DNA of 64,000 nt, from the NCBI RefSeq assembly GCF_028890305.1, contig NZ_JARBXM010000002.1, positions 1-64,000 on the forward strand, read 5' to 3'. This DNA comes from Candidatus Methanosphaera massiliense (GTDB taxonomy: Archaea; Methanobacteriota; Methanobacteria; Methanobacteriales; Methanobacteriaceae). Below the pieces are notes generated by a model. It was not told where the DNA came from. It was given only the letters and a program-made list of their open reading frames with translations, and did not search any database. Below are positions 7,168-39,684 of the stretch, one piece after another (the first letter of the stretch is position 1; every line of letters starts with the position of its first letter). The translations under genes were made by a program, and so were the position numbers.

Positions 7168-8853
7168 ATGAGTCCAAAAGGAGATCATAAAAAAAATCAC
7201 CCACATAAAACAGAACAAGGAACCTACAAAATAGGAAAATGTAAAAGAAGAAAAATAAAAGAAATACTAGGAATCGACCTAGAAAACAAACCGGAAGTAC
7301 AGGACATAAACCTCAACACAATAACAAGCCCCAACAGAGAACAAAGAGCACACGGAACCAACATATACTATGGAAAAGCATCAAAACTACTGGATGACGC
7401 TGTAAACTCAAACATACAGATACAAGAAAGAAAATTCCAACAATCAGGAGGATGTGTACTAAACTTCTATCTAGCAGTGAGAATAAGCACAATAAGAGAT
7501 GCAGTAGTAATATACAACGCACCAGTAGGATGTTCCGCCTCAGCACTAGGATACAGAGAACTATTCAGAGGAGTACCAGAAGAATTAGGAAGACCCCACA
7601 GCTACAAACTAAACTGGATGACAACAAACCTTCAACAAAATGATGTAATCTACGGAGCAGGAGAAAAACTAAGAAAAACAATACTTGAAGCAGAGGAAAG
7701 ATACCATCCGAAAGCAATATTCATACTAACCTCATGTACAACAGGAATCATAGGAGAAGACATAGAAGGTACAGTAGAAGACGTACAACCAGAAGTAGAA
7801 GCTACAATAGTACCAGTACACTGTGAAGGAGTAAGAAGCAGACTGGTACAAACAGGATACGATGCATTCTGGCACGCAGTACTAAAATACCTAGTAAAAA
7901 AACCAGAGAAAAAACAAAAAGACCTGGTAAACGTGGCAAGTATGCTATCATATACATGGCAAGACAGACTAGAAATAAAAAGACTACTAGGAAAACTAGG
8001 ATTAAGAGTAAACTTCATACCAGAATTTGCAACAGTAGAACAATTCGAAAGACTAGGAGAAGCAGCTGTAACAGCACCAATATGTCCGACATACACAGAC
8101 TACCTTTCACGAGGATTAGAACAAAAATTCGGAGTACCATACTTTTTATATCCAGTGCCAACAGGATTTAAAAACACTGATGAATGGCTAAGACAAATAG
8201 GAAAATACACAGACAAAGAAGAAGAAGAAGTAGAAGAACTAATCAAAGAAGAACATGCAAAATGGGAACCAAAACTAAATGCAATCAAACAACAATTCAT
8301 AAAAATATCCAATGAACGTAAAAATGGAGAAAAAATAAAAGTACTAGGAGCACTAGGACAAGGAAGACTAGTATCACAAATGCCATATTTCGATGAATTA
8401 GGCCTGGAAGCACCAGCAGCAATGGCACAGGACTTTGATGAACTACTAATAGATGAATTAGCAGATATCATTGAAAGAAAAGGTGACTTTGACATAATGG
8501 TTAATACATTCCAAGCAGCAGAGCAAGCAAATGTAACATCAAATATAAAACCAGATTTAACATTAACTTGTCCATTCCAAGGAGGAAGCTGGAAAAGAGA
8601 TACACAAGTAACAAGAATTCACTCATTACGAGGAGATCCGGCACCAGAAAGTGCTCAGTCAGCATATTCCGGAGCAGTAGCATATGGAGAATTTTTATTA
8701 CGTGCATTTATCAATAAAGCATATCAGAAAACATTATCTGAAAAAACAGAGCCAGCATATAAAGACTGGTGGTATGAACAAGAAGATCCATTATACTTTG
8801 TTGAAAACAGAGATAATACTAAAAACAATGAAGAAGAAGTATATGGTAAATAA
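7168..8853 (+). CDS. Nitrogenase-like reductase, NifD-type subunit
   Basis: A 561-residue NifD/NifE superfamily protein with AAGGAGA before the ATG. P-cluster-type cysteines are Cys96 (SGGC), Cys122 (APVGC) and Cys190 (TSCTTGIIGEDIE), equivalent to NifD Cys62, Cys88 and Cys154. Both active-site cofactor ligands are present: Cys306 (PICPTYTDYLSR) for Cys275 and His485 (RIHSLRGD) for His442. Val104 and Arg130 fall at NifD Val70 and Arg96. In the VPVHCEG block, NifD His195 aligns with Tyr231 and Gln191 with Val227, so dinitrogen reduction is doubtful. A 55-residue, Lys/His-rich N-terminal extension is unusual. K, H and B partners follow. The closest described idea is a group IV nitrogenase-like enzyme such as methylthio-alkane reductase (MarD). 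The alignment is from memory. Confidence 0.85.
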   Translation: MSPKGDHKKNHPHKTEQGTYKIGKCKRRKIKEILGIDLENKPEVQDINLNTITSPNREQRAHGTNIYYGKASKLLDDAVNSNIQIQERKFQQSGGCVLNFYLAVRISTIRDAVVIYNAPVGCSASALGYRELFRGVPEELGRPHSYKLNWMTTNLQQNDVIYGAGEKLRKTILEAEERYHPKAIFILTSCTTGIIGEDIEGTVEDVQPEVEATIVPVHCEGVRSRLVQTGYDAFWHAVLKYLVKKPEKKQKDLVNVASMLSYTWQDRLEIKRLLGKLGLRVNFIPEFATVEQFERLGEAAVTAPICPTYTDYLSRGLEQKFGVPYFLYPVPTGFKNTDEWLRQIGKYTDKEEEEVEELIKEEHAKWEPKLNAIKQQFIKISNERKNGEKIKVLGALGQGRLVSQMPYFDELGLEAPAAMAQDFDELLIDELADIIERKGDFDIMVNTFQAAEQANVTSNIKPDLTLTCPFQGGSWKRDTQVTRIHSLRGDPAPESAQSAYSGAVAYGEFLLRAFINKAYQKTLSEKTEPAYKDWWYEQEDPLYFVENRDNTKNNEEEVYGK

Positions 8854-8871
8854 GCAAGAGGAGCTGTTAAA

Positions 8872-10257
8872 TTGGCAAAAAATTCAGAAGAAATCAAGAA
8901 GGAAATTAATCAGAGTAAATACCACTTAGATCCTAAAACAACTGACATTGAAAGAGAATCCGTAGAAGCTCCAAGGTACGGCTGTGCATTATCTGGAGTA
9001 TATGCAACAACTCTCGGCTTAAACAATGCTATTCCTATCCTACACTCAGGAGCAGGATGTGGTGTAGCACATCTATTTGGAACACTATATCCTGGAGGAC
9101 AATCCTGTGGACAAAATAAGGGAGGAACAGCAACTCCATGTTCATGTCTAGTAGAAGAACATGTGATTCTTGGTGGAGAAGAAAAATTAGATAACCTCAT
9201 AGATTCCACAATAAAAATATCTAACTCTAACTTCTACGTTGTAATCTCAGGATGTGTACCATCACTAATAGGAGATGATGTAGATAGTGTAGTTGAGAAT
9301 TACCAGTTCAATCATGATATTATACATGTAAATGCACCTGGATTTAAAGCACACTCCTTCGAGGGATATAATCTATTCTGGGATTCTCTTATTGAAAGTG
9401 ATATATTACAGAAACAGGAAGTTGAAAAGAATACTATTAACATATTAGGAGTGCTACCTTATAATAATGTTTTCTGGAAAGGAGATTTATATGAAATAAA
9501 ACAATTATTCGCAGCACTTGGTGTTAATGCAAATGTTATTTTCGGATATGGTGATGGATTAACAAATCTTAAAAATGTGCCAAAAGCAGCACTTAATGTG
9601 GTTGTAAACCCATGGTTAGGTGTAAGAGCAGCAAAAAAACTTAAAGAAAAATTTGGAACTCCTTACATAACTTTTCCAGGTATACCTATAGGTGCTAAAC
9701 AAACATCATCATTTATTGATAGAGTAGGTAGAACTTTAAATATTGATGAAGTAAAATTATCTAATTTCATAAAATCAAAAGAAAAAAATTATTACCACAT
9801 ATTTGAAGCACCAGGGGATGCTATAATATTAAGTCGTCCTAACCAGTACTTTGCAGTTGTTGCAGATAGTGCATATGCAATTGGATATACGAAGTTTTTA
9901 ACTAATGAATTAGGATATCTTCCGGATATTGTGCAGATAACAGATAATCCGCCAGTAGAGGTAAGAGAGAAGATTATTAAGGAAATCAATAATTCATTAG
10001 AATCCACAATTACTCCTGATGTAATATTTGAAGCAGATACTTATCGTATTCGAGAAAATTTAAAGGATAGACCATTTACATTCCTACTTAGTAGTTCATT
10101 AGAAGCTCCGACAGCTTCAGAGGATTTTGGTGCATGTCATGTAAGTGCAGCATTCCCTATATTAAGTAGTGCTGTTCTTGTAAATCATTATGGTGGATAT
10201 TATGGTGGATTAACATTATTCGAAGATCTGGTTTCAACATTTGTAGGACCATTATAG
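8872..10257 (+). CDS. Nitrogenase-like reductase, NifK-type subunit
   Basis: A 461-residue protein starting at TTG 8872 behind GAGGAGC, 18 bases after the D-type gene, so the two are cotranscribed and probably coupled. The three P-cluster cysteines of NifK are conserved: Cys38 (YGCALSGVY), Cys63 (HSGAGCG) and Cys128 (ISGCVPSLIGDDVDS). Extra cysteines at 79, 90 and 92 lie in a Gly-rich stretch where NifK has C-V-S-D, and could add or change ligands. The end (LVNHYGGYYGGLTLFEDLVST) matches the NifK/NifN pattern. Expected to form an alpha2beta2 complex with the product of 7168-8853, with an Fe-S cluster at the interface. It is shorter than NifK proper, as usual for simpler group IV proteins. Confidence 0.85.
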   Translation: MAKNSEEIKKEINQSKYHLDPKTTDIERESVEAPRYGCALSGVYATTLGLNNAIPILHSGAGCGVAHLFGTLYPGGQSCGQNKGGTATPCSCLVEEHVILGGEEKLDNLIDSTIKISNSNFYVVISGCVPSLIGDDVDSVVENYQFNHDIIHVNAPGFKAHSFEGYNLFWDSLIESDILQKQEVEKNTINILGVLPYNNVFWKGDLYEIKQLFAALGVNANVIFGYGDGLTNLKNVPKAALNVVVNPWLGVRAAKKLKEKFGTPYITFPGIPIGAKQTSSFIDRVGRTLNIDEVKLSNFIKSKEKNYYHIFEAPGDAIILSRPNQYFAVVADSAYAIGYTKFLTNELGYLPDIVQITDNPPVEVREKIIKEINNSLESTITPDVIFEADTYRIRENLKDRPFTFLLSSSLEAPTASEDFGACHVSAAFPILSSAVLVNHYGGYYGGLTLFEDLVSTFVGPL

Positions 10258-10282
10258 GAAAAATAATAAGGAAGGTGATTAA

Positions 10283-11161
10283 ATGACAAAAAGAAAACAA
10301 ATAGCAATATACGGAAAAGGTGGAATAGGAAAATCAACAACAACATCAAACCTATCTGCAGCATTATCAGACCTAGGATACAGTGTAATGCAAGTAGGAT
10401 GTGACCCAAAAAATGATTCAACCACAACACTCAGAGGTGGAAAAACCATACCCACAGTACTAGACACCATACGAGAAAGAAAAAACAACCTAGACAACAT
10501 AGTATATGACGGATACAATGGAATATACTGTGTAGAAGCAGGAGGACCTGAACCAGGAGTAGGATGTGCAGGTCGAGGAATCATAGCAGCAATAGAATTA
10601 CTAGATTCAAATGGAATAATAGAAGACTATGATCCAGACATAATCATTTATGACGTACTAGGAGACGTAGTATGTGGAGGATTTGCAATGCCGATTCGTA
10701 AAGGAGTAGCAGAACAAGTATACACTGTAACATCCTCTGACTACATGGCAATATATGCTGTAAACAACCTATTTAAAGGAATACTTAAATATGCAAACAA
10801 GGGAGGAGCTTTAGTTGGTGGAATTATTGGAAACTCCATAAAAAACTCCACACAGGAAGCAATGATAGAGGACTTCAGTAACCATACTGGAACAAATGTA
10901 ATAAACTATGTGCCAAGGTCATCAACAGTAACAAGATGTGAATTAGATGGAGTTACAACAATAGAAGGAGCACCGGATTCAGAACAAGCAGAAGTATATA
11001 GAAATCTAGCAAGAAATGTTATAGAAAATAAGGATAAAATAAAACCAAAACCATTCTATGGAGACGATTTATCAGAATGGGGATCCACATGGATAACAGA
11101 ACTACTCCAAGCAGAAAAAGTTGAAAGAGATAATATTCAATCAGAAGGTTCAGGAATATAA
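10283..11161 (+). CDS. NifH-like reductase (Fe protein)
   Basis: A 292-residue P-loop ATPase with an excellent AAGGAAGGTGA site. Motifs are GKGGIGKS (residues 11-18), DPKNDST, switch II D-V-L-G-D-V-V-C-G-G, and the two cysteines that bridge the [4Fe-4S] cluster between subunits, Cys95 (GVGCAGRG) and Cys131. The Arg of CAGRG, the ADP-ribosylation site in some NifH proteins, is present. It should be the ATP-driven electron donor to the D/K pair just upstream. Sequence alone cannot separate NifH from BchL, CfbC or MarH roles, but the neighbours point to a dedicated partner. A T8 run at 11217-11224 after the stop suggests termination before the nifB-like gene. Confidence 0.92.
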   Translation: MTKRKQIAIYGKGGIGKSTTTSNLSAALSDLGYSVMQVGCDPKNDSTTTLRGGKTIPTVLDTIRERKNNLDNIVYDGYNGIYCVEAGGPEPGVGCAGRGIIAAIELLDSNGIIEDYDPDIIIYDVLGDVVCGGFAMPIRKGVAEQVYTVTSSDYMAIYAVNNLFKGILKYANKGGALVGGIIGNSIKNSTQEAMIEDFSNHTGTNVINYVPRSSTVTRCELDGVTTIEGAPDSEQAEVYRNLARNVIENKDKIKPKPFYGDDLSEWGSTWITELLQAEKVERDNIQSEGSGI

Positions 11162-11309
11162 TAGTGATAATTTACCCCAATAATCATGAAATTTCCCCAT
11201 AAAATCCTAAACCTTCTTTTTTTTAAAAACAAAGCATATCCTCAATATTTCTCCACTAAAAAAATAGAATGTAAAACGTTAACATAATCATAAAAAGGAG
11301 TGAAAAACC

Positions 11310-12176
11310 ATGAGTAAAGAAGATACAAGCTTTTCACATATAACAAAAGTACATCCCTGCTTTAATGAAAAGATACATGATAAAGTAGGAAGAATACACA
11401 TACCAATAGCACCAAAATGTAACATACAATGTGGATTCTGTACAAGATCAATAAACAAAACAGAAAACAGGCCAGGAGTATCCTCAGAAATAATGACCGT
11501 GAATAAAGCAATAGAACACATAAGAAAAGTAACAAGTACAGACCAGCCCATAAATGTAGTAGGAGTAGCAGGTCCTGGAGACTCATTATACAATGAGAAC
11601 ACACTTAAATTATTCAAGAAAATAGGAGAAGAATTTCCAGAAATGATTCTATGTATGAGTACAAACGGATTACTAGTACCTGATTATGCAGAGGAAATAC
11701 AAACAGCAGGAGTAAAAACCGTGACAATAACAATCAACGCCATAGACCCAGAAATAGGTGTTCAAATATATGATAACATACACTACCACGGAAAAACATA
11801 CCATGGAAGAGAAGGATTTGAATTACTCCTGAAAAATCAATTAAAGGGAATAGAACTACTATCACAGAAAGGAATAATAGTAAAAGTAAATAGTGTACTA
11901 ATACCAGGACTCAACGATGAACATATAATTGACATAGCACGAGAAGTGAAATTCCGTGGAGCATCAATAATGAATATAATACCATTAATACCTTTAAATA
12001 AATTCAAAGGATATTCACGTCCTGGTTGTGGCGAATTAAGTAAAGTACGAGATGAAGTAGAACAAATAATACCAGTATTTAGAGCATGTACGCAATGCAG
12101 AGCTGATGCCTTCGGAATACCTGGAAAACAAGATCAAGACTTCGCATTAGGCTTAACCCCTGCTAGTCACTACTAA
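11310..12176 (+). CDS. nifB: NifB-like radical SAM cofactor maturase
   Basis: A 288-residue minimal NifB of the archaeal type, lacking the C-terminal NifX-like domain. It shows the NifB pattern HPC (Cys17), the radical SAM motif CNIQCGFC (Cys37, 41, 44), ENRPGVSSE, and the C-terminal C-x-x-C-R-A-D (Cys260, Cys263) that holds a further cluster. NifB fuses two [4Fe-4S] units with a carbide from SAM to give the eight-iron NifB-cofactor. With no NifEN here, that cofactor may be inserted directly into the D/K pair. AAGGAGTGA precedes the ATG. The 148-base gap after the H gene holds a T run, so this gene may have its own promoter. Confidence 0.92.
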   Translation: MSKEDTSFSHITKVHPCFNEKIHDKVGRIHIPIAPKCNIQCGFCTRSINKTENRPGVSSEIMTVNKAIEHIRKVTSTDQPINVVGVAGPGDSLYNENTLKLFKKIGEEFPEMILCMSTNGLLVPDYAEEIQTAGVKTVTITINAIDPEIGVQIYDNIHYHGKTYHGREGFELLLKNQLKGIELLSQKGIIVKVNSVLIPGLNDEHIIDIAREVKFRGASIMNIIPLIPLNKFKGYSRPGCGELSKVRDEVEQIIPVFRACTQCRADAFGIPGKQDQDFALGLTPASHY

Positions 12177-12290: not shown

Positions 12291-12758
12291 TTATTGGTTA
12301 ATAAATTCCTTTAATTCTTCCTGTGATTCACTGTCTGTTAATCTTTTTCCTTGTTTCCAGCTGATTTCAGGGTATGCTTTTTCTAAGTCATTAACTGGTC
12401 CTGTTACTCCTGTTCCACCAGATGTTACGAATGTGATTATTGATTTATCACTGAAATCCGTGCTTTCTAGGAATGTGCTTATTATGTTTGGATATGTATA
12501 CCACCATACTGGGAATCCCAGTACTATTGTATCATATTCTGATACATCTATCGTGTTTTTTATTGCTGGTCTTATTGATTTATCCTCTTTTTCATTTGTT
12601 GTTCTGCTGTTCTGGTCCTGCCAGTCTAGATCAGCATCTGTATATGCTGTCTCGGGCGTTATTTCAAACAGGTCATCATCATCTATTTTTGACAGTTTTT
12701 CAGCAGCGTTCTTTGTTACTCCGCTAGCTGAGAAGTATGCTATTAATTTTTTTGTCAT
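12291..12758 (-). CDS. Flavodoxin-family protein
   Basis: A 155-residue flavodoxin fold. The N-terminal KLIAYFSASGVTKNAAEKL carries the FMN phosphate loop (S-A-S-G-V-T-K). GFPVWWYTYPNIISTFLE supplies the aromatic residues over the flavin, and TFVTSGGTGVTGP is the second flavin loop. Long-chain features resemble the flavodoxin_4 group with NAD(P)H- or quinone-related roles. It is convergent with the nitrogenase-like cluster and could supply low-potential electrons, but that is proximity only. The ribosome binding site is poor (GTTGAT). Confidence 0.88.
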   Translation of the reverse strand: MTKKLIAYFSASGVTKNAAEKLSKIDDDDLFEITPETAYTDADLDWQDQNSRTTNEKEDKSIRPAIKNTIDVSEYDTIVLGFPVWWYTYPNIISTFLESTDFSDKSIITFVTSGGTGVTGPVNDLEKAYPEISWKQGKRLTDSESQEELKEFINQ

Positions 12759-12815
12759 ATTTTATCAACTCTTATACTATATTATATAATATAGATATAG
12801 ATATATTTAACTATA

Positions 12816-13394
12816 TCAATACAGTAGTGCTGTCAGCAGTGTAAGATACTCAGGAAACCTGCCATTTTCAAAGTCTATGCTTTCTAATTCAAAGCCGAAG
12901 ACATCGGTAAGCGTTTTATTAACCAGTGTGCCTATGGATTCTATTGAATGTCTGACCTTGTCAGGGAATCTGCATGGTTCATCATTTATTCTGCTGCATT
13001 CCTCACAGATATCACAGAAACCGGCAGATAATACCAGACCATCAGCTTCAGCCTCTTTAGCCATTAACTCTGACAGTATCCTACTTTTTTCCTTGAAAAG
13101 TGTCATGTCAACAATATCAATTATCTCATCAATATTGAAGCTTTTCTGTCTAAATTCATCAGTGAAATTTAATTTCAGAGCTATTAACTTTATATTGTCA
13201 TACCTTGTCCAGTATTCACTGACATCCTCCCTGAATTCAGGACATCCCCAATTGTTATTGTACATGTTACATTCCCTGCATAATTTTCCAGTGTATTCCA
13301 GGTCCACAAAGTTCTCATAGAATTCACTGGTGGGAACTGTTTTCACAATACGTTCCACTGTATACACGTCATCTAGATTAAGATTATCAATCAT
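12816..13394 (-). CDS. DUF2284 predicted metal-binding protein
   Basis: A 192-residue product from the ATG at 13394, which has GGTGAT upstream; an in-frame start at 13421 lacks one. Two Cys clusters stand out: CRECNMYNNNWGCPEF near residues 30-46, and GFCDICEECSRINDEPCRFP near 128-150. This is the DUF2284 pattern seen in anaerobes, thought to bind an Fe-S cluster or metal. The role is unknown. It is separated from the flavodoxin by 57 bases on the same strand, so the two may be an operon. Confidence 0.82.
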   Translation of the reverse strand: MIDNLNLDDVYTVERIVKTVPTSEFYENFVDLEYTGKLCRECNMYNNNWGCPEFREDVSEYWTRYDNIKLIALKLNFTDEFRQKSFNIDEIIDIVDMTLFKEKSRILSELMAKEAEADGLVLSAGFCDICEECSRINDEPCRFPDKVRHSIESIGTLVNKTLTDVFGFELESIDFENGRFPEYLTLLTALLY

Positions 13395-13492
13395 TGTTAT
13401 CACCACAGCCTTAATAATCATTATCTGTCTTTAAGTATAAATCATTATAGGTATAAAAATACAACCTTACTAAAACATGGAATATAGATGAA

Positions 13493-22831: not shown

Positions 22832-24206
22832 TATAGTTTTTTACTAAAAGTTTATACCTAATGGATTATAAATGTATATTCATGGAAAAATTTAATAATA
22901 AAATTGAAAAACATTTAGAACTTTCAGAAATTTCAGACATGCTGAAAGAGTACAAGGAATATTACACTGTTTATAGGCGTCTTTTGTTAATTAACATGGT
23001 TGCAAATGGTGAAAGTATTGCTAAAGCCTCAAAAAACATTAATATTTCAAGAAAAACAGGCGAACGTTGGGTCAAACAATATAATGAAAATGGCGTTGAT
23101 GGTTTATTTTCAAATTATTCCAATTGTGGAAGAAAATCATATTTAACTGATCAACAATTAAAAGAATTGAATGAAATCATAACTGGAAATGAAGAGAAAT
23201 ATAATTTAAAAGATGTACGAAACTTAATTAAAGAAAAATATGGTATAACATATAGTGAGAAGCAAGTATGGGTTATTACAAGACAAAAATTAAATTTAAA
23301 CTATGGAAAACCATTCATTAAATACAACACACGTCCTAAGAATCCTGAAGAAGATCTTAAAAAAAACTAAAGACAACAGACATACAAACAGAATATTTTG
23401 CTTTTTTAGATGAAACATCTTGTCAAAATGTTCCAAATGTTACAAGAATATTATATGCTCCTGGAGAAAAAAATATACAAACAAAACATCCAGTAAAATT
23501 TGGAATAAATGTAACTGGATTTCAAGGAATCAATTGCAACTCATATATGGAGGTAAATACAAAAAACAATGCATTTCACTTTGTAATTACCTTATGCCAT
23601 TACCGTATTGAAAACATGACTAATAGATTAGGTAAACAATTAATCAAAGATGCAATAAACAATGAAAACTTATCTGATGAAAAAATAAAAAAATATCTAT
23701 CCTCTAAATCACTAAATGAAATGGATTTGATAAATAAAATCAATGATGAACTATATAATGACAATTCCAAACAAATTTCCATAGAAAAAATTCAAAAGAT
23801 TTGCAGGAAAGAAGACAACAACAATTCAAGAAAAATAGGGTATGAAAAAAGATTAAGATTACTGAATAACCTATCAAATCCAAAAATAATGGAAATAAAC
23901 TCAAAAGAAAAAAGAATAAATATTATTTTAGATAACGCAAGAATACATCATGCTAAAATTGTTGAAAAAGCCTGTGAAATATTGAACATAAATTTAATCT
24001 TTTTAAAACCATATTGCCCTGATTTAAATCCAATTGAAGATGTATGGCGTAAAATTAAATCTAAAATATATAAATCAATGTATGAAAATTTAAACAAATT
24101 AATAGAAATATTTGAACGTGAATTCTATAAAATAGTTGATTTAACATCATTTTACACAAATTGGGTTAATGAATATTTAGGTATAAACATTTGGTAAAAT
24201 ACTATA
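22832..24206 (+). mobile_element. IS630-type insertion sequence, about 1375 bp
   Basis: Inverted ends of 30 bases at 22832-22861 and 24177-24206 match at 27 of 30 positions and both begin TATAG, consistent with the TA target used by the IS630/Tc1 group. The left end runs up to the transposase start codon and the right end contains its stop codon. The element encodes one transposase in two frames. Confidence 0.88.
22861..24197 (+). CDS. IS630-type transposase read through a -1 frameshift
   Basis: The first frame (22861-23370) gives a helix-turn-helix region (GESIAKASKNINISRKTGERWVKQY). The DDE domain lies in the -1 frame. An A8 run at 23359-23366 joins them: a one-base slip back gives an open path from KKLKTTDIQTEYFAFLDETS to the end, about 445 residues in all. 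The catalytic triad is visible: Asp in FLDETSC, Asp in IILDNARIHHA, Glu in YCPDLNPIEDVW. IS elements of this group often use programmed slippage on A runs, but a chance indel in an inactive copy cannot be excluded. The start ATG overlaps the terminal repeat. Confidence 0.8.
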
Positions 24207-27929: not shown

Positions 27930-28788
27930 ATGTACACACATCCCTTACAGCTTTTGAGTAATCTTTCAACATGTTATGAGTAATTAATGTAATTACATAA
28001 TCTATATTGTCAAAATTTAATAAATTAACTCCATTTTTTTTCATCAGATGATGTAGTTTTACATCTAATTTATCATCAGGAACTTCCATTTCCTGTATAT
28101 ATACTTCTTCTGTATCTTCTTTAGAGTATGTGTTTATAAATCGTAGAAGTGCTTTTTGAAGTCCTGCATAATAATAAACATTATTCAAGTTTTCATCACC
28201 TAAATCATTGAACAACATTTCTTTATATTTACTTGAAATAACTATTTTTTCAGAACTTAATACATACTGAATACTGCTTTTTTGTGTATTATCCAATCTT
28301 TTTTCAAATAGTTGTTCAGGATCCGTATCAAATCCATCAAAACGAATTACGTTAGAATATCCCAATAACGTATATCTTGGAAGAATTATGTTTTTCTTGT
28401 ATGAATTATAAAAGAAATCTAAATCATTATTGTTTTCAAAAGAAATAATATCATTAGATACTATAAATAGTTGAAATTGACTTTTATCAACTAAACTTAT
28501 TTTATCCTTATGAATTAATATCTCTTTTTGAGAAGGATAATTTAAAGTTATGTTTTCATCATCTTTTGTGTGTATTATACATGTTAAAAATGCTTTATTT
28601 ATCTTTAATAATTTCTTAAGATATTCTGAAGGAATTTTATATGTTATTAAAAAGTTATAATATTCTCCATCTTCTTTAATTTCATCTTTTATGTCTAGAA
28701 TATCAAATATAAAATCATTATCTTTATAACTTTCAGACTTACGTGTTAATACAGGATAAGGAAAATGTGCGTCACTATCATAAATCAT
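27919..28788 (-). CDS. Unknown protein, second gene of GHKL ATPase operon
   Basis: 289 residues; the start overlaps the stop of the ATPase gene by four bases (ATGA type). The first residues, MIYDSDAHFPYPVL, form a compact motif, followed by alternating strands and helices and a C-terminal helical region (KLHHLMKKNGVNLLNFDNIDYVITLI). No catalytic motif or known family is recognised. The four-base overlap shows translational coupling with the ATPase, so the products are likely partners in one complex. Confidence 0.7.
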   Translation of the reverse strand: MIYDSDAHFPYPVLTRKSESYKDNDFIFDILDIKDEIKEDGEYYNFLITYKIPSEYLKKLLKINKAFLTCIIHTKDDENITLNYPSQKEILIHKDKISLVDKSQFQLFIVSNDIISFENNNDLDFFYNSYKKNIILPRYTLLGYSNVIRFDGFDTDPEQLFEKRLDNTQKSSIQYVLSSEKIVISSKYKEMLFNDLGDENLNNVYYYAGLQKALLRFINTYSKEDTEEVYIQEMEVPDDKLDVKLHHLMKKNGVNLLNFDNIDYVITLITHNMLKDYSKAVRDVCTYEN

Positions 28789-30647
28789 TGTTTTACCTCT
28801 AAGTAATATAATAATTTCATTGAATGATTGTATTCTTCTTTAAGATTAATATTTAATAGAGCTATTCTATTTTTAACTGTTATATCTTTAATTTTATTGT
28901 TTATAATTTTACATTTATTTTTAGATAATTCATCAGTAACTATTGAATAATTATTATCTATATTAAAGTCAATATCCTCCTCTTCACCATTTCCTATTTG
29001 AATTTTTATGCTTAAATCTACTTTTTTAATGTTTTTTAATTCGGGCATGTTTGAAAAATCAAATAGAACATGTTCATGGTCGCGAATAATTTGACGTTTA
29101 ACCTGTGTGGGATTTGCATAAAAATTCTCAATTTCTATATTTTCTGAATCATCTTCTTTTAATGATTCTTTTCTAGATGTATTATTATTGTTATCACCAT
29201 CTACGTTATTCTGACGTGTTTTCTTTTTATGAATTCTGGGAGTAGTAGTTTTTTTCTCTGTTCCTTCAGTTTTCACTAGATTAAGTAATGTCTTTCTACT
29301 TTTTTCGTCTAATTGCCTACTAAGATGTACATTATATGAGAATATATGACTACTTGTATCTATATCTCCCTCTGTAGGGTTTTTCTGTTCTTCTATTTTA
29401 TCCATTATTTTCTTAATTACATTAGAAATATTGTTAATGAATTTTTTTCCTGATGGTTGTAATGAGTCATCCAATTCTGCTTCATTGATTTCCGTGTGTG
29501 CTATGTTTTCAAGGGATTTTAATCTAGCATCGCCTTCTGATGTTTGAGGAAGTAATATACCGTTAAAGGGTTTGAAGCTATGATTAGTTATTGTTTTATC
29601 CTCTATTTTCATACCTATTGTTCTTATTATTGCTATTCTTGCTTTTTTTATTTTTTTATCATATTTTAAATACAGATTAAATGGATATTCCTGTTCAAGA
29701 TCTTTTATAATTATTTCCCGTGGTTTTTCATCTTGGTATGTTTGATAATATAATGGTGTGAATTCTTTTCTGATTTCTGTAGGATTTTGTGTATAATACT
29801 TTGAATCTAGTATGTATTTTTTAATATTCTTCTTATTAATTTCTATTTCATCTACAAATACAATTAACTCATTTCTAATAATTGCTAAGAAAAAACTATC
29901 ACAAATACTTTTAATAATTTCTTTAGTATTAGCATATCCTTTTCTAAGGAAAGGAATTATTATTTTTAATCCGGGAGTATCTTTCATAAATAATCCGTCA
30001 TATGTATTTTCATATGGAATAAAATCATGAGGTATCTTTTTAGCAAAATACCCCGTACTTTTATAGAACTTTGACTTATATTCATGTTCAATAAGATGTA
30101 CAGTACCCCCTAATTGTTTATTACCTTTAAGATCACAATTAGCAAAATACATTATATGAAGAGAGGAGGATGCATTAGATGCTATTTTACCTACACCATG
30201 TGAACCGCCTCTTTGCTTCTCAAATTCACGGTCAGTATCCTTAGTATGTCCCCCCATTGTAAAAGCATAATCAGAATATCTCTCTTTTGAAAGACCTCTT
30301 GTATTACAATCTTCAAATGATATATAGTCTACTATTTCCTGCTGGATATCTTTTTGCATAGTCTTAATAGTTTTAAGAGTATAATCACTGATATTTGGAG
30401 GAGTGTGTAAACAATTAATTCTTTCTTTAAATTCTTCATTAATTCCAGGTAAATCTTTAGTGTTTATTTGTCCAGTTTTTATTCTGACTATTACTGGCTT
30501 ATCCTCTTTTTGTGTACTTGCATCTAGAGAATTCTGTATGTTTTCTCTTACAAGTCCACTAATTCCATTTTTATAAAAATCTTTCAAATGGCCATTGAAT
30601 TCAAGAGTATCTAAATAATCTTCTTCAGAAAAACTCCACTTATTCAT
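28785..30647 (-). CDS. GHKL (HSP90/MutL-type) ATPase, probable defence protein
   Basis: 620 residues from the ATG at 30647 behind GAGGT; an upstream TTG overlaps that site. The Bergerat ATP fold is clear at the N-terminus: N box RENIQNSLDAS (34-44), a G1-like FEDCNTRGLS (111-120) and G2 GGSHGVGK (147-154). The centre has beta-rich segments (GLKIIIPFLRKG). A charged low-complexity linker (THRIHKKKTRQN-type, GDNNNNTSRKESLKEDD) lies near 470-510, before a C-terminal beta domain. MutL-like GHKL ATPases are known as components of prokaryotic restriction-modification loci, and a 5mC methyltransferase, a nuclease and Vsr are encoded nearby. The exact system is not recognised. Confidence 0.78.
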   Translation of the reverse strand: MNKWSFSEEDYLDTLEFNGHLKDFYKNGISGLVRENIQNSLDASTQKEDKPVIVRIKTGQINTKDLPGINEEFKERINCLHTPPNISDYTLKTIKTMQKDIQQEIVDYISFEDCNTRGLSKERYSDYAFTMGGHTKDTDREFEKQRGGSHGVGKIASNASSSLHIMYFANCDLKGNKQLGGTVHLIEHEYKSKFYKSTGYFAKKIPHDFIPYENTYDGLFMKDTPGLKIIIPFLRKGYANTKEIIKSICDSFFLAIIRNELIVFVDEIEINKKNIKKYILDSKYYTQNPTEIRKEFTPLYYQTYQDEKPREIIIKDLEQEYPFNLYLKYDKKIKKARIAIIRTIGMKIEDKTITNHSFKPFNGILLPQTSEGDARLKSLENIAHTEINEAELDDSLQPSGKKFINNISNVIKKIMDKIEEQKNPTEGDIDTSSHIFSYNVHLSRQLDEKSRKTLLNLVKTEGTEKKTTTPRIHKKKTRQNNVDGDNNNNTSRKESLKEDDSENIEIENFYANPTQVKRQIIRDHEHVLFDFSNMPELKNIKKVDLSIKIQIGNGEEEDIDFNIDNNYSIVTDELSKNKCKIINNKIKDITVKNRIALLNINLKEEYNHSMKLLYYLEVKQ

Positions 30648-31040
30648 ATAATACCTCAAATATTATTTTTTTGTAAATTCTCGTCTCCATGTTTAACTTC
30701 CATTAAAGATAAGCAATAGAAAAAGTAACATAAAAAAATCATATTATATTCATTAATAAAATATAAATCTCTGAATATATCAAATAAATTTTAATATAAT
30801 TACTTATTTTTATTTATTTTGATATAATTTAGTTTATTATTAATTATATTTAAAATTTATCATCTATTTTACTTTATTATTCACAAATAAACTTGTAAAT
30901 ATTACTTTATTTTTAAAAATATTAATTATTAAATATGTAAAAGGGAATTTAAGAGTAAAAAATAACTTTAAAATAAAACATTTTGATAAAACTAGAAAAT
31001 AAATATATCTTTAAATATAATTTCAAAAATATAGTTACAT
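30648..31040. promoter_or_regulatory. Divergent promoter region between ATPase operon and restriction gene
   Basis: About 390 bases, over 85 percent A/T. It must carry promoters in both directions. TATA-like sequences are too many to choose between, and no palindrome stands out. Confidence 0.4.
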
Positions 31041-31598
31041 ATGTTGCATGAAGAAAGAACATTAATTATTGAAGATAAAGAATATACATCTACTGTAGAT
31101 ATAGTTGAAGCCAAAGACAAAGATATTATCATTGATATTTACAATCAATGGAGAGACGTTTCTAGTAAACTATCCTATTTAGGCTGTAGACGATTAAATT
31201 TCCCCGAAATAAGCGAATTAATTTTTTGCAAATTATTTGATTGCTGGAGGACTAACAATATAGACATAAATCATAGTTCTTTTGACTGTTACAATCCCAA
31301 AACAAATAAAAGAATACAAATTAAAGCAGCAAGTTCAAAAAACGAATTGACAAGTTTTGGACCAAAATCAGTGTGGGATGAGCTATATTATATGGAATTT
31401 TATAAAGATGAAACATATGACGGTACATTTGATATTTATTTAATACCTAATGAACTAATATACAATAATAAACAAAATGAAAACGAAACATTTGTAGATC
31501 AACAAAAAGATGGAAAAAGACCACGTCTCCATATAAGAGAACTAATCAAAGATAATAATATAAAACCAATTGGAACATACAATATCAATGACATATGA
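31041..31598 (+). CDS. Bsp6I-like type II restriction endonuclease
   Basis: 185 residues. The segment FPEISELIFCKLFDCW (about 54-69), then SSFDCYNPKTNKRIQIKAASSKNELTSFGPKSVWDELYYMEF and DGTFDIYLIPNELIY match what I recall of the Bsp6I family, whose members cut GCNGC sites. The QIKAAS stretch with upstream Glu and Asp residues fits a PD-(D/E)XK active site. It converges with a 5-methylcytosine methyltransferase gene 26 bases away, as expected of a type II pair. No ribosome binding site is visible at the ATG, so the message may be leaderless. Confidence 0.7.
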   Translation: MLHEERTLIIEDKEYTSTVDIVEAKDKDIIIDIYNQWRDVSSKLSYLGCRRLNFPEISELIFCKLFDCWRTNNIDINHSSFDCYNPKTNKRIQIKAASSKNELTSFGPKSVWDELYYMEFYKDETYDGTFDIYLIPNELIYNNKQNENETFVDQQKDGKRPRLHIRELIKDNNIKPIGTYNINDI

Positions 31599-31624
31599 TT
31601 AAATTTTAAAAAAAAAGTAAGAAG

Positions 31625-32935
31625 TTATAGATTATCATCTATTAACTTCAATATATCAGTCACCACTTTTTCTATCCAATAACTAGCAAGTGGAGGTACT
31701 GCTTCACCTATTTGTGCACGGACTTCCGCTGTATTTCCATTAAACAAATAATTATCAGGAAACGTCTGTATTCTTGCTCTTTCTCTATTTGTTAATGCTT
31801 GTCTATCATATTCATAATGATAACCACCAGTTCCACCACCACCGTATGCTATTATAGTAGGTGATGGTTTTAATGGATGTAATCTTCTATAAATATTACT
31901 CATTAATCCTTTAACTTTCCAAGGAGTATTCTCAACAGCTTTAAAGTTATAGAATGGTGGAATATGATGTAATCTTTCAGTTACTTTACGATTTTTTCTA
32001 GGAAATTTATTAGAATTATCTAAGTATTGTTGTTCAGATATTTTTTTATTATAATATCCTAATATTTTAAGAATTTTTTCATGTTCTAACATTGCTTTAT
32101 TAATCTCTTCAGAGTTATTAAAAGATATATTGTTATTTGATAAATAATCATCAACTATATTAAGTTTTAAAGATTTGTATTCAGATTTCCAACGATTAGC
32201 TTCATCGTTGTCTATATCATCCATACATCCATTATATTTTTTTATAATATCCAAGTAGGTATCGTTTAATTCTGATAAAGGTTTACCTTCAAAAATTTCT
32301 AAAGGTGTTAATGGATATTTTCCTAGTAGCTCATTTGACAAGTATTTAGATAAAATATGATTTATCGCTACATCTTGATTTTTTATTAAACTCTTTTTAA
32401 CACCAATTATTATCAATCGTTTTCTTGCTTGAGGTACGCCAAGAGTACTGAAATTAATAATATCATTAAACACCAATTTATATCCAGCATCAATAAAATC
32501 CTGTTGAATCAATTCATAAGCTAATCCTTTATTTGCAGAAGTCATTCCAACTACATTTTCAAATACAAATACTTTAGGTTGAGCTTTTTTCAAAATTCTT
32601 AGATATTGTTCATATAATTTCCCACGTTTAACTTTTAATCCAGCTCTTTTCTCACTTCCTCTGAGTACACTAAAATCTTGACAAGGAGGTCCGCCTAAAA
32701 TAACATCTGCTTCATAAGAGATGTCTAGTTCATGAATATCACCACAGATCCCCACTTCTTTCTCATCAGTATAATCATTTAATTTAATAAAAGATAATTT
32801 ATTATTTTGAGTATATGTTTTTAGATGAGCTTCAAGTAATTCATTAGAAGCTATTAAATCATAGTTTCCACTATTATGAAATCCCCAATCTAAACCACCT
32901 GCACCCGTAAATAAACTAATTATTTGCCTAGTCAT
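31625..32935 (-). CDS. DNA (cytosine-5) methyltransferase
   Basis: 436 residues from the ATG at 32935, with GGAG seven bases upstream; the earlier TTG is inside that site. Motif I is SLFTGAGGLDWGF, motif IV is GGPPCQDFS with the catalytic Cys, motif VI is FENVVGM, motif VIII is QARKRLIIIG, and motifs IX-X are RERARIQTFPDNYLF and QIGEAVPPLAS. The target-recognition region, about residues 200-330, is large. It methylates the C5 of a cytosine at the site of the companion endonuclease, probably that of 31041-31598. It overlaps the regulator gene by eight bases. Confidence 0.95.
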   Translation of the reverse strand: MTRQIISLFTGAGGLDWGFHNSGNYDLIASNELLEAHLKTYTQNNKLSFIKLNDYTDEKEVGICGDIHELDISYEADVILGGPPCQDFSVLRGSEKRAGLKVKRGKLYEQYLRILKKAQPKVFVFENVVGMTSANKGLAYELIQQDFIDAGYKLVFNDIINFSTLGVPQARKRLIIIGVKKSLIKNQDVAINHILSKYLSNELLGKYPLTPLEIFEGKPLSELNDTYLDIIKKYNGCMDDIDNDEANRWKSEYKSLKLNIVDDYLSNNNISFNNSEEINKAMLEHEKILKILGYYNKKISEQQYLDNSNKFPRKNRKVTERLHHIPPFYNFKAVENTPWKVKGLMSNIYRRLHPLKPSPTIIAYGGGGTGGYHYEYDRQALTNRERARIQTFPDNYLFNGNTAEVRAQIGEAVPPLASYWIEKVVTDILKLIDDNL

Positions 32936-33134
32936 GTTCTTCTCCAAATATCTTTTGTTTTAATGTTGTTGATATAAAAGAGTTTTCTGTTAGCCATGCC
33001 ATTGTTATATTTTTTACAACTTCGGAATCACTATTACCTAATTCTCCTTTAAGTTTCTGAAGTAATTCATACTGTTCCTTGGTGAAGTTCACCTGTATTC
33101 TTTTAACATCTTTTGTCATGATTTCACTAGTCAT
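32928..33134 (-). CDS. Ribbon-helix-helix regulator of the R-M genes
   Basis: 68 residues. RIQVNFTKEQYELLQKLKGELGNSDSEVVKNITMAWL is the strand-helix-helix pattern of CopG/Arc-type DNA-binding proteins. The start is ATG 33134, or ATG 33119, which has a GTGA just before it. The stop lies eight bases inside the methyltransferase gene, so the two are coupled. A perfect inverted repeat 43-66 bases upstream is a likely operator. This is the position expected of a controller protein of a restriction-modification operon. Confidence 0.75.
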   Translation of the reverse strand: MTSEIMTKDVKRIQVNFTKEQYELLQKLKGELGNSDSEVVKNITMAWLTENSFISTTLKQKIFGEEHD

Positions 33135-33460
33135 AATATATTTATTATATTAATGTTTATAATAAATATTATATAAATATTACTCATAATTGAGTAATAT
33201 CTGTGTTTTATTTAAGTATAATAGTGTTAAAGTAATGAAATAAATCCGTAACTCTATTCACATACTATATAAAAAAAATATTAGATATAAAAAGAACAAA
33301 ATAAAAAAAAATTCATTTAAAAATCAGATGAAAAGAAAAAAAAAATATAAATTTAATGAGAGATTGTACCATTAATTATTGATTGAATTGGAGCCATGTT
33401 GTTAGAAGCCCATACTTGTTATATTGACCAGAATATCTATCAGAACTATTAGCTATTAAT
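33135..33460. other. Intergenic region with operator and possible ORF fragment
   Basis: It holds the inverted repeat at 33177-33200. On the minus strand at about 33360-33495 a frame overlapping the end of the vsr gene stays open for roughly 45 codons (ending LLTTWLQFNQ) and looks protein-like. Confidence 0.45.
33177..33200. promoter_or_regulatory. Inverted repeat, probable operator of the R-M regulator
   Basis: ATATTACTC at 33177-33185 and GAGTAATAT at 33192-33200 are perfect complements with a six-base spacer. The site sits in the promoter region of the ribbon-helix-helix gene, as autoregulatory sites of controller proteins do. Confidence 0.6.
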
Positions 33461-33880
33461 TTATTTCTCAGACGTGATTTTAATGTATAAATTTTCAAGT
33501 GTCTTTTCTTTTTTGTCCTTTTTTAACTGGCATTCCCATACAGTGATGACATTCCATCCCATTGATTTCAATAGTTTTATATTAGCTTCATCACGCTCTT
33601 TGTTTCTATATAATTTCTTCTTCCAATAATCAACATTAGATTTTGGCATCTTAGCATATTTACATCCCTCGTGTAAATGCCAAAAACAACCATTAATAAA
33701 AACAATTGTATTATATTTAGGCAGTACAATGTCCGGAGTTCCAGGATATCGTTTATCATTCTTTCTGAAGCGAAGGCCTTTTGAAAATAAATAGCTACGA
33801 ACAATTATTTCTGGTTTTGTATCTTTACATTTAATCTGTGACATATTATAACTGCGAGTCTCTTTACTAACTTTGTCCAT
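33461..33880 (-). CDS. vsr: Very short patch repair endonuclease Vsr
   Basis: 139 residues with the full Vsr pattern: RSYNMSQIKCKDTKPEIIVRSYLFSKGLRFRKND, PGTPDIVLPKYNTIVFINGCFWH with the catalytic Asp, HEGCKYAKMPKSNVDYWKKKLYRN, and WNVITVWECQL. The His/Cys set that holds a structural zinc is present. Vsr nicks at T:G mismatches made by deamination of 5-methylcytosine, so it protects this host from the mutagenic effect of the nearby methyltransferase. It is 327 bases upstream of the regulator on the same strand. The ribosome binding site is weak (GGTAGT). Confidence 0.95.
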   Translation of the reverse strand: MDKVSKETRSYNMSQIKCKDTKPEIIVRSYLFSKGLRFRKNDKRYPGTPDIVLPKYNTIVFINGCFWHLHEGCKYAKMPKSNVDYWKKKLYRNKERDEANIKLLKSMGWNVITVWECQLKKDKKEKTLENLYIKITSEK

Positions 33881-38481: not shown

Positions 38482-39684
38482 GGCTTTGTAGAAATCCTAT
38501 TTTTGCAAAATTTGAATAGATCTATAAATATTATAAAACACATTTTTTAATTTTGTTTCTTTTATTTGTAATTTCGTAGATCTACTATTGTTTATTCCAT
38601 TAAATCTTCTTTTTTGAATACTATTCACACATTCTACTTGATTTCTGAAGTTATATACTGGTTTTAAGAAGATAGTTCTACATTTACTCCTATATTTTCC
38701 TGATTTTTGTCTAGTTTTCACAGGTATTTGTGGTAATGCTGTTGTTTCTTCTACTATTGTTTTTTTAATTATTTCTGAGTCATATGCTCTATCTGCTAAT
38801 ATATACCGTGGTTTGTACTTCTTTATTGCTCTAATTGCACTTATTGCAAATACTGTATCGAATTTTGGTCCTTTTAAAGCATTGTAATGTCTTATTAACA
38901 TATATTTTGAATCGATTGTGATATGGTTTTTTATGTATTGTCGTCTTGTTTTATTTGTTCTATTGTTGTAATAGATGTCTGAATAGGAATTAGTGTATCC
39001 TGTTCCATCTAAACTGAAATAACACTCTTTCACAGGGAAATATTGTAATAATAGTCTGTTAATATTGTTTATTTGTTTTGTTTCTATTCTTTTGAAGAAT
39101 TTCTGAATTGTTGTGTGATGTGGTATCGTTTTTAGTCTTAAAGCTTTCTGTAATTTAGTTGATACGTTTAGATTATCAATTGTTGTTCTGTAATCGTATT
39201 TATTGTATATTTTATAAGCTATTATTGCAAATAATTGTGGTTGTGTGTATTTTTTCTTTGAATAGTGTGATGAATATTTGTTAAAAGTTAATTTAGCATA
39301 ATTATATGCTGTTAATACGAAATCTAACATCATATTGTGTGTTAAATTTATTTTTTCATTTTTGGATATTTCTGATAAATAATTATTATTTTGTCTTTGA
39401 ATTCCAAAATCGAAAAGTTTAAGTTGTTTAGAATTCAAATACTTATTTGTAGAATAGATATTTTCGTTTAGCATATTTATATCTATTCTACTCTTTAAAT
39501 AAATACTTATTCTTATTGTATTACTTTTAAACTTATTATTATTCTTTGATTTTATAATTTAGATTAATTTCAAGTGTAATTTTTTTATTTAATTATCTAT
39601 TTTCTATTATAATTTAATTTTAAAAGATCTGATAATGTTTTCATAAAGATTTTTATTATAAAATTATATGTTTTCTACAAAGCC
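38482..39684 (-). mobile_element. Complete insertion sequence, 1203 bp, ISM1-like, with 8-bp target duplication
   Basis: The ends are GGCTTTGTAGAAA (38482-38494) and its exact complement at 39672-39684. Both flanks carry TATTTTAG (38474-38481 and 39685-39692), a perfect 8-bp target-site duplication, so the copy is intact and fairly recent. Size and duplication length resemble ISM1 of Methanobrevibacter smithii. A second copy ends at position 86 of the window. Confidence 0.92.
38497..39474 (-). CDS. DDE transposase of the insertion sequence
   Basis: 325 residues. Catalytic blocks are CYFSLDGTGYTN (first Asp), RYILADRAYDSEIIKK (second Asp) and FRNQVECVNSIQKRRFNG (Glu). PHHTTIQKFFKRI near 117-129 is the helix region found before the catalytic core in IS5/ISNCY-type transposases. 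It appears full-length and undisrupted, so the element may still be active. The start is the ATG at 39474. Confidence 0.88.
   Translation of the reverse strand: MLNENIYSTNKYLNSKQLKLFDFGIQRQNNNYLSEISKNEKINLTHNMMLDFVLTAYNYAKLTFNKYSSHYSKKKYTQPQLFAIIAYKIYNKYDYRTTIDNLNVSTKLQKALRLKTIPHHTTIQKFFKRIETKQINNINRLLLQYFPVKECYFSLDGTGYTNSYSDIYYNNRTNKTRRQYIKNHITIDSKYMLIRHYNALKGPKFDTVFAISAIRAIKKYKPRYILADRAYDSEIIKKTIVEETTALPQIPVKTRQKSGKYRSKCRTIFLKPVYNFRNQVECVNSIQKRRFNGINNSRSTKLQIKETKLKNVFYNIYRSIQILQK

Follow-up and report, generated by a model that had tools for sequence, protein, structure and literature searches.

Methylthio-alkane reductase (Mar) has been described as a C–S bond reductase built on an [Fe8S9C] cluster, and Arg428-His429 on its loop I has been called a possible hallmark of the enzyme (PMC12552129). 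MarBHDK of Rhodospirillum rubrum (PDB 9fmg, 9d9u) is the best match, in both sequence and fold, of the D and K proteins encoded by a four-gene operon of Candidatus Methanosphaera massiliense. The operon lies at positions 7168-12176 of a 64,000-nucleotide stretch, hereafter the window (assembly GCF_028890305.1, contig NZ_JARBXM010000002.1, positions 1 to 64,000, forward strand), with its genes in the order D-K-H-B, all on the plus strand. Comparison with its relatives places D in a well-supported clade, probably sister to Mar, with an active site that departs from those of both Mar and nitrogenase. With moderate confidence, the operon is read here as encoding a NifB-cofactor C–S bond reductase for organosulfur scavenging, distinct from Mar in its residues.

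The operon

7168 to 8853, plus strand: D subunit, 561 amino acids, NifD/MarD-like catalytic alpha subunit (PF00148, 5e-68)
8872 to 10257, plus strand: K subunit, 461 amino acids, NifK/MarK-like, TTG start (PF00148, 1e-62; MarK 9d9u, 5e-83)
10283 to 11161, plus strand: H, 292 amino acids, Fe-protein-like ATP-dependent reductase (PF00142, 2e-100; motifs)
11310 to 12176, plus strand: B, 288 amino acids, NifB-like radical SAM cofactor synthase (TIGR01290, 4e-86, below cut-off)

The four genes are packed into a compact operon, with intergenic gaps of 18, 25 and 148 nucleotides, and evolve under purifying selection: when each gene is compared with its counterparts at two or three sister loci, the ratio of nonsynonymous to synonymous substitution rates (dN/dS) is 0.04-0.18 in 10 of 11 gene pairs, the eleventh being saturated. 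An earlier, sequence-only reading of the window had recognised a nitrogenase-like D-K-H-B cluster at these positions, and the four genes are confirmed there. All four proteins score below the NCBIfam cut-offs of named families, H only narrowly so for nifH (385.7 vs. 394.35 bits); B scores 289.5 bits against the nifB-like TIGR01290, whose cut-off is 343.65. The cluster cysteines that the same reading had attributed to K, H and B are in place, namely Cys38/63/128 in K, Cys95/131 in H, where they accompany a GKGGIGKS motif, and those of the HPC, CNIQCGFC and CTQCRADAFG motifs in B.

Active-site residues of the D subunit

Relatives of D were compared in a 60-row MAFFT alignment, in which the published MarD landmarks Cys73, Trp195, Phe199 and Cys270 (PMC12552129) fall in the correct columns. 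Residue counts refer to 28 distinct rows of the window clade and 11 Mar-type rows; one Methanothrix contig is represented by one row, its second D copy being set aside. The following positions, all on the plus strand, are of interest.

7453 to 7455: Cys96, P-cluster ligand position (alignment)
7531 to 7533: Cys122, P-cluster ligand position (alignment)
7735 to 7737: Cys190, P-cluster ligand position (alignment)
7846 to 7860: Val227 to Tyr231, at NifD Gln191/His195 and MarD Trp195/Phe199 (alignment)
8083 to 8085: Cys306, cofactor Cys ligand position (NifD Cys275, MarD Cys270; alignment)
8365 to 8367: Arg400, NifD Arg359 position, 28/28 in the clade (alignment)
8569 to 8574: Cys468-Pro469, opposite MarD Arg428-His429 (loop I) in MAFFT, the register of the loop being uncertain
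8620 to 8622: His485, NifD His442-like cofactor ligand position (loop II), 28/28 in the clade (profile alignment)

Gln191 and His195 of NifD are two residues needed for nitrogen fixation, and both are absent from all 28 clade rows. The replacement of Gln191 by Val227 and of His195 by Tyr231, first proposed by eye, is confirmed in the 60-row alignment, where Cys96, Cys122, Cys190 and Cys306 also stand in the columns claimed for them. Val104 and Arg130 occupy the NifD columns to which they had been assigned, but are weak evidence because both vary within the clade (Val in 20 and Arg in 23 of the 28 rows). For His485, proposed as the second cofactor ligand, the alignments differ: a profile-profile alignment (hhalign) of the clade against 12 NifD-type sequences sets it on NifD His442, whereas MAFFT leaves it two columns off. 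His485 lies within an H-x-x-R-x-D pattern present in every clade row, and in the stretch 440-545 the only other position that is often His is 455 (19/28).

The residues that mark the Mar type are largely replaced. Trp195, present in all 11 Mar-type rows, gives way to Val, Ile, Met, Ser, Leu or Asn; His375 (11/11) gives way to Asp or Glu throughout the clade; Phe199 (11/11) is Tyr in 25 clade rows and Phe in three; and His194, found in six Mar-type rows, occurs in no clade row. Under the MAFFT register, the Arg-His of loop I (11/11) stands opposite Cys-Pro in 27 clade rows and Ala-Pro in one, while the hhalign register sets Arg-Asp of the window D there, such that neither register yields a loop-I His. 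A third, "H-only" branch of Group IV (five rows) also carries the loop-I His, which may therefore have come first and later been replaced by the loop-II His. Judged from these alignments, one side of the pocket appears more nitrogenase-like than that of Mar, and the side bearing the Gln191/His195 positions resembles neither nitrogenase nor Mar.

Phylogeny and distribution

The 28 distinct sampled D sequences form a clade with 100/100 support in the D trees, which place it in Group IV, apart from Nif, and probably as sister to Mar, a pairing that two D trees support at 95/89 and 91/68. For K, the tree recovers the clade at 100/98 and its pairing with the Mar type at only 60/84. Trees were rooted on Nif-type rows, with CfbD and BchN confined to the alignment. 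The D tree leaves out eight of 26 loci that are near-copies, partial or broken (L004, L008-L011, L015, L022, L024), as well as many loci from the surveys of Methanobacteriota and other phyla; L066, labelled NifD-like, groups with NifE.

Hosts of the clade are methanogens, Methanoperedens, Geotalea, Chlorohelix and some Bacillota, and relatives include Methanobrevibacter, Methanosarcina, Methanothrix, Methanoperedenaceae, Geotalea, and metagenome-assembled genomes (MAGs) of Deltaproteobacteria and Planctomycetota. Locus L004 (MAG RUG12825) encodes a D 99% identical to that of the window. At an identity of at least 64%, D is found in 27 of 151 Methanobacteriota genomes and in four of the 20 from its own genus. 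In the phylum of a Methanosarcina, it occurs at 60% or more in nine of 392 sampled genomes, plus one (G155) in broken pieces, and in the phylum of a Syntrophomonadaceae MAG in two of 299 (64% and 44%), at most the best few candidates per genome being scored in these two surveys. One genome (G218) has three D copies. In two Methanosarcina genomes the D gene is broken (L024:9980-11523 and L022:9980-13158), and in L022 K is fragmented as well.

Ten same-family genomes with a clade D, chosen for their further weak matches in the Methanobacteriota survey, all carry a canonical NifD that retains Gln and His; there, the operon need therefore not be the nitrogenase. Canonical NifD is probably lacking from 15 of the 27 Methanobacteriota genomes with a clade D, since only three matches are shown.

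Gene neighbourhoods

Neighbourhoods were scored by BLASTP against reference genes within 10 kb of D at 32 loci (34 with a clade D, two having been merged as repeats of one genome); the loci were collected by similarity, so that the counts do not describe a random sample. At 18 of the 32, a neighbour matches an ATP-binding cassette (ABC) transporter, MetY, CysK, PatB, HcyBio, URO-D or NifX reference. The deeper lineages combine the operon with SsuABC/TauABC-like transporters, NifX-like proteins, CysK, MetY and a PatB-type aminotransferase, and also with URO-D/MtaA-CmuA-like methyltransferases, the single one tested scoring below its cut-off. Among the 52 NMT1-family binding proteins in 11 relatives' genomes, 10 are found no more than 10 kb from D, spread over six of the genomes, against about 0.35 expected by density (52 in ~35 Mb; flanks of at most ~0.24 Mb). 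Four of these 10 belong to one array and are thus not independent.

Individual loci give more specific matches. In G540, a MetY gene located 3.3 kb away from D scores above its cut-off, PALP enzymes at L020 and L027 are 65-66% identical to annotated CysK, and MetY and ABC genes are annotated near D in Chlorohelix. In a sister Methanosphaera MAG (L006/L144), the divergent next-but-one neighbour of the D operon is an HcyBio gene (PF01837, 2e-98). The Chlorohelix allophototropha plasmid (L067:8044-30284) holds window-type and Mar-type H-D-K genes together with ABC transporters, MetY and two NifB-like genes. Plasmid pTS2 of Treponema saccharophilum (L068:2800-21392) bears two Mar-type D-K pairs, MetY, CysK, NifB/NifX-like genes and an ABC transporter.

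Other genes of the genome

The genome (1.79 Mb, two contigs) contains three PF00148 matches, namely D, K and a CfbD-like gene; a nifE or nifN is therefore absent from the whole genome by this profile search. The sequence-only reading had also reported no nifI, and none was recognised by eye in the window, to which that search was limited. PF00142 matches H, one further strong place, presumably CfbC-like, and two weak places. Two NifB-type genes are present, plus one partial match. The second NifB (C1:4914-5735) adjoins methanogenesis markers 17, 15 and 5 (run L132:4905-8768), a position that fits the proposal that NifB serves the activation of methyl-coenzyme M reductase (MCR; PMC12176620). 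The window NifB shares 72% identity with this second copy, 85% and 78% with its operon counterparts in L005 and L006, and 40-49% with those in bacteria and Methanoperedens; the operon copy therefore appears to have arisen by duplication of the archaeal NifB.

Immediately beyond the operon, and convergent with its end, are Flavodoxin_4 and DUF2284 genes (12291-13421); the flavodoxin could be an electron donor. Elsewhere in the window, inspection by eye recognised transposase-like open reading frames (ORFs) at 22861-24197 and 38497-39474, and DNA-methyltransferase-like and Vsr-type nuclease-like ORFs with an ATPase-like neighbour at 28785-33880, a possible defence island.

Proposed mechanism

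The favoured C–S reductase would work as follows. Dimeric H would hydrolyse ATP and pass electrons to (DK)2, whose [Fe8S7] P-cluster would relay them to the cofactor, a route modelled on the family. The cofactor would be [Fe8S9C] itself (NifB-co, or L-cluster), made by the operon NifB without Mo and without maturation on NifEN, and held by Cys306 and His485. At a cofactor site devoid of the N2-specific Gln/His pair, the C–S bond of an organosulfur compound would be cleaved reductively, and the sulfide or thiol released would enter cysteine and methionine synthesis. The choice of a C–S bond as the target follows from the kinship to Mar and the sulfur gene neighbours of relatives. We infer the cluster content, the ligation by His485, the C–S chemistry, and a shared function for the window copy, which has no sulfur neighbours of its own.

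Much of the sequence-only reading survives in this proposal. The trees and the fold match indicate, as it proposed, a simple enzyme of Group IV that is close to Mar and has a NifB of its own, and the dichotomy it drew between a Mar-like enzyme and a new Group IV branch is sharpened into a clade separate from Mar, devoid of the loop-I His, Trp195 and His375 and equipped with a nitrogenase-like His. D and K stand apart from Nif, position 195 is not His, and the genome has no nifEN. Reduction of something other than N2, which it had also put forward, is favoured only, the substrate class being drawn from the neighbours of relatives, not from the window.

Several observations weigh against the favoured reading. 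In the AlphaFold2 model, residues 469-474 and 477-487 have a predicted local distance difference test score (pLDDT) below 50, and the proposed ligand swap is consequently not visible structurally. The hhalign register places an Arg of the window D opposite MarD Arg428. The window locus has no sulfur or transport neighbour of the kinds scored, and the same holds for 14 of the 32 loci, including the close relatives L004, L005, L007-L011 and L028, several on short contigs. The 18 positive loci include generic ABC ATPase matches, the PatB match of L017 reaches only 25%, and the binding proteins match SsuA only below its curated cut-off. NMT1 occurs in 121 and PF01053 in all 151 of the Methanobacteriota genomes, so near-universally that their presence alone is uninformative. 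For this reason, the sole NMT1 gene of the window genome, which lies ~78 kb downstream on the same contig with a permease and an ATPase, and which cysteine-desulfurase-like and IscU-like ORFs (by eye) adjoin, provides no evidence. Finally, the literature searched yielded no datum on the biochemistry of the clade.

Alternative readings

It is unlikely that the enzyme is simply a Mar in function, converting dimethyl sulfide, ethyl methyl sulfide or 2-methylthioethanol to methanethiol and a hydrocarbon in a rearranged pocket. Mar is the closest solved enzyme, and MetY, which can use methanethiol, neighbours the operon in some relatives; the pocket differences are also incomplete, given the three clade rows with Phe at position 199 and the inconstancy of His194 even in the Mar type. 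Against this, Trp195 and His375 separate all 11 Mar-type rows from all 28 clade rows, and so does Arg428-His429 under the MAFFT register. Chlorohelix, moreover, keeps both types within one 30 kb stretch, and this joint retention suggests different substrates. The substrate is probably not identical to that of Mar.

Less likely still is a reductase of some non-sulfur substrate, be it another small molecule or a tetrapyrrole, or a cluster scaffold, the sulfur neighbours of distant relatives being inapplicable to the window branch. The bare surroundings of the window operon and of most close relatives would agree with this, as would the patchy occurrence within the genus, but the main signature residues are common to sulfur-linked and unlinked members, and HcyBio lies near D in the sister Methanosphaera MAG.

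A minimal nitrogenase working on [Fe8S9C] itself, like the Group IV-A (Nfa) enzyme to which 15N2 incorporation by Endomicrobium proavitum is attributed, is improbable: Cys306, the NifD-like His485, Arg400 and the lack of NifEN would suit it, as would the reported N2 fixation by E. proavitum without NifEN and with all ligands present (PMC9147875, PMC11257099) and the reduction of N2 by L-cluster-loaded scaffolds (PMC13245594), but Gln191 and His195 are missing throughout the clade, canonical NifD accompanies the clade D in all ten chosen genomes, and none of the five D genes seen in G603, probably the genome of Heliophilum fasciatum, belongs to the clade, the presumptive NflD1/NfaD among them being of the Mar R-H type.

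Significance

Returning to the favoured C–S reductase, a broader and more tentative proposal is that it represents a third kind of [Fe8S9C] enzyme alongside nitrogenase and Mar, in which a nitrogenase-type Cys/His pair binds the cofactor inside a scaffold of Group IV, where relatives rely on a His of loop I, desulfurising imported organosulfur compounds in gut methanogens and other anaerobes independently of MCR and possibly releasing a small hydrocarbon. If true, [Fe8S9C] would be held in two ways in Group IV scaffolds, by a loop-I His in Mar and by a loop-II His in the window clade, and this pair would offer a natural test of the way in which the protein, not the metal cluster, sets N2 versus C–S chemistry. 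Methanosphaera, reported in 2026 to be without a nif operon (PMC13135261), would gain a so far unnoticed member of the nitrogenase family and possibly a means of scavenging sulfur. No description of the clade in methanogens was found in the literature searched, though it may sit unnamed in figures or supplementary trees (e.g., PMC12176620, PMC3464626).

Comparison with known systems

Isethionate reductase IsrBHDK shares the four-gene B/H/D/K set and a sulfur context. IsrD is reported to retain a single P-cluster cysteine out of three and to lack both Cys275 and His442, and the system uses a BciD-like radical SAM protein (PMC11423573); window D keeps Cys96/122/190/306 and its B is NifB-like, and Isr is set apart on the strength of that published description. 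CfbCD of F430 biosynthesis belongs to the same superfamily, with CfbD-like and CfbC-like genes elsewhere in the window genome. CfbD itself is excluded as the identity of D by the profile score (51.3 bits vs. a cut-off of 268.4 for TIGR03282) and by the K partner, which CfbD lacks, rather than by the trees, from which CfbD is absent.

Mo-nitrogenase NifHDK has in common with the operon the P-cluster cysteines, the Cys275 and Arg359 positions, by profile alignment a His442-like position, and often Val70 and Arg96. Unlike it, the window D lacks Gln191/His195, is encoded in a genome without nifEN, falls apart from Nif in the trees, and scores far under the NCBIfam cut-offs. Canonical Nif, Vnf and Anf are rejected on the absence of both residues from all 28 clade rows, the missing nifEN and the position apart from Nif in the trees.

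Nfa of Group IV-A, known from E. proavitum and as NflDK1 of Heliophilum, resembles the operon, as reported, in belonging to Group IV, in doing without NifEN, and in having NifH and NifB in the locus. Window D is probably not Nfa, because the presumptive Heliophilum NflD1 (G603_D1) groups with the Mar R-H clade and not with that of the window, provided that G603_D1 is indeed NflD1, the Nfa reference. The NfaD of E. proavitum is reported with all nitrogenase ligands in citing papers (PMC9147875, PMC11257099), which conflicts with the placement drawn from G603_D1 and would fit the window clade better. The D/K cluster of G603 lies on C7 at ~105-140 kb, its first D near NifH, NifB-like, NifX-like, CysK and MetY genes. 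The presumptive NflDK1 (L137:1607-15692, L138; G603:C7) bears the Mar signature C73/Q74, W195, F199, H375 and R428-H429, and sits amid MetY, CysK, NifX-like and ABC-transporter genes. Predicted in print as a nitrogenase, it seems from these features to fit sulfur scavenging better than N2 fixation.

Mar remains the closest match. Plain MarD identity is rejected on the position of D outside the MarD clade in two D trees and the lack of a loop-I His in either register. The two systems share the B/H/D/K gene set, the P-cluster cysteines of D and K, and the cofactor Cys270 position, Cys306 in the window D. They differ in overall sequence (34% identity over 446 aligned residues), in the separateness of the window clade (100/100), and in the pocket, where Trp195, His375 and the loop-I His429 of Mar are missing and a NifD-like loop-II His and an Arg at the NifD Arg359 position are found instead.

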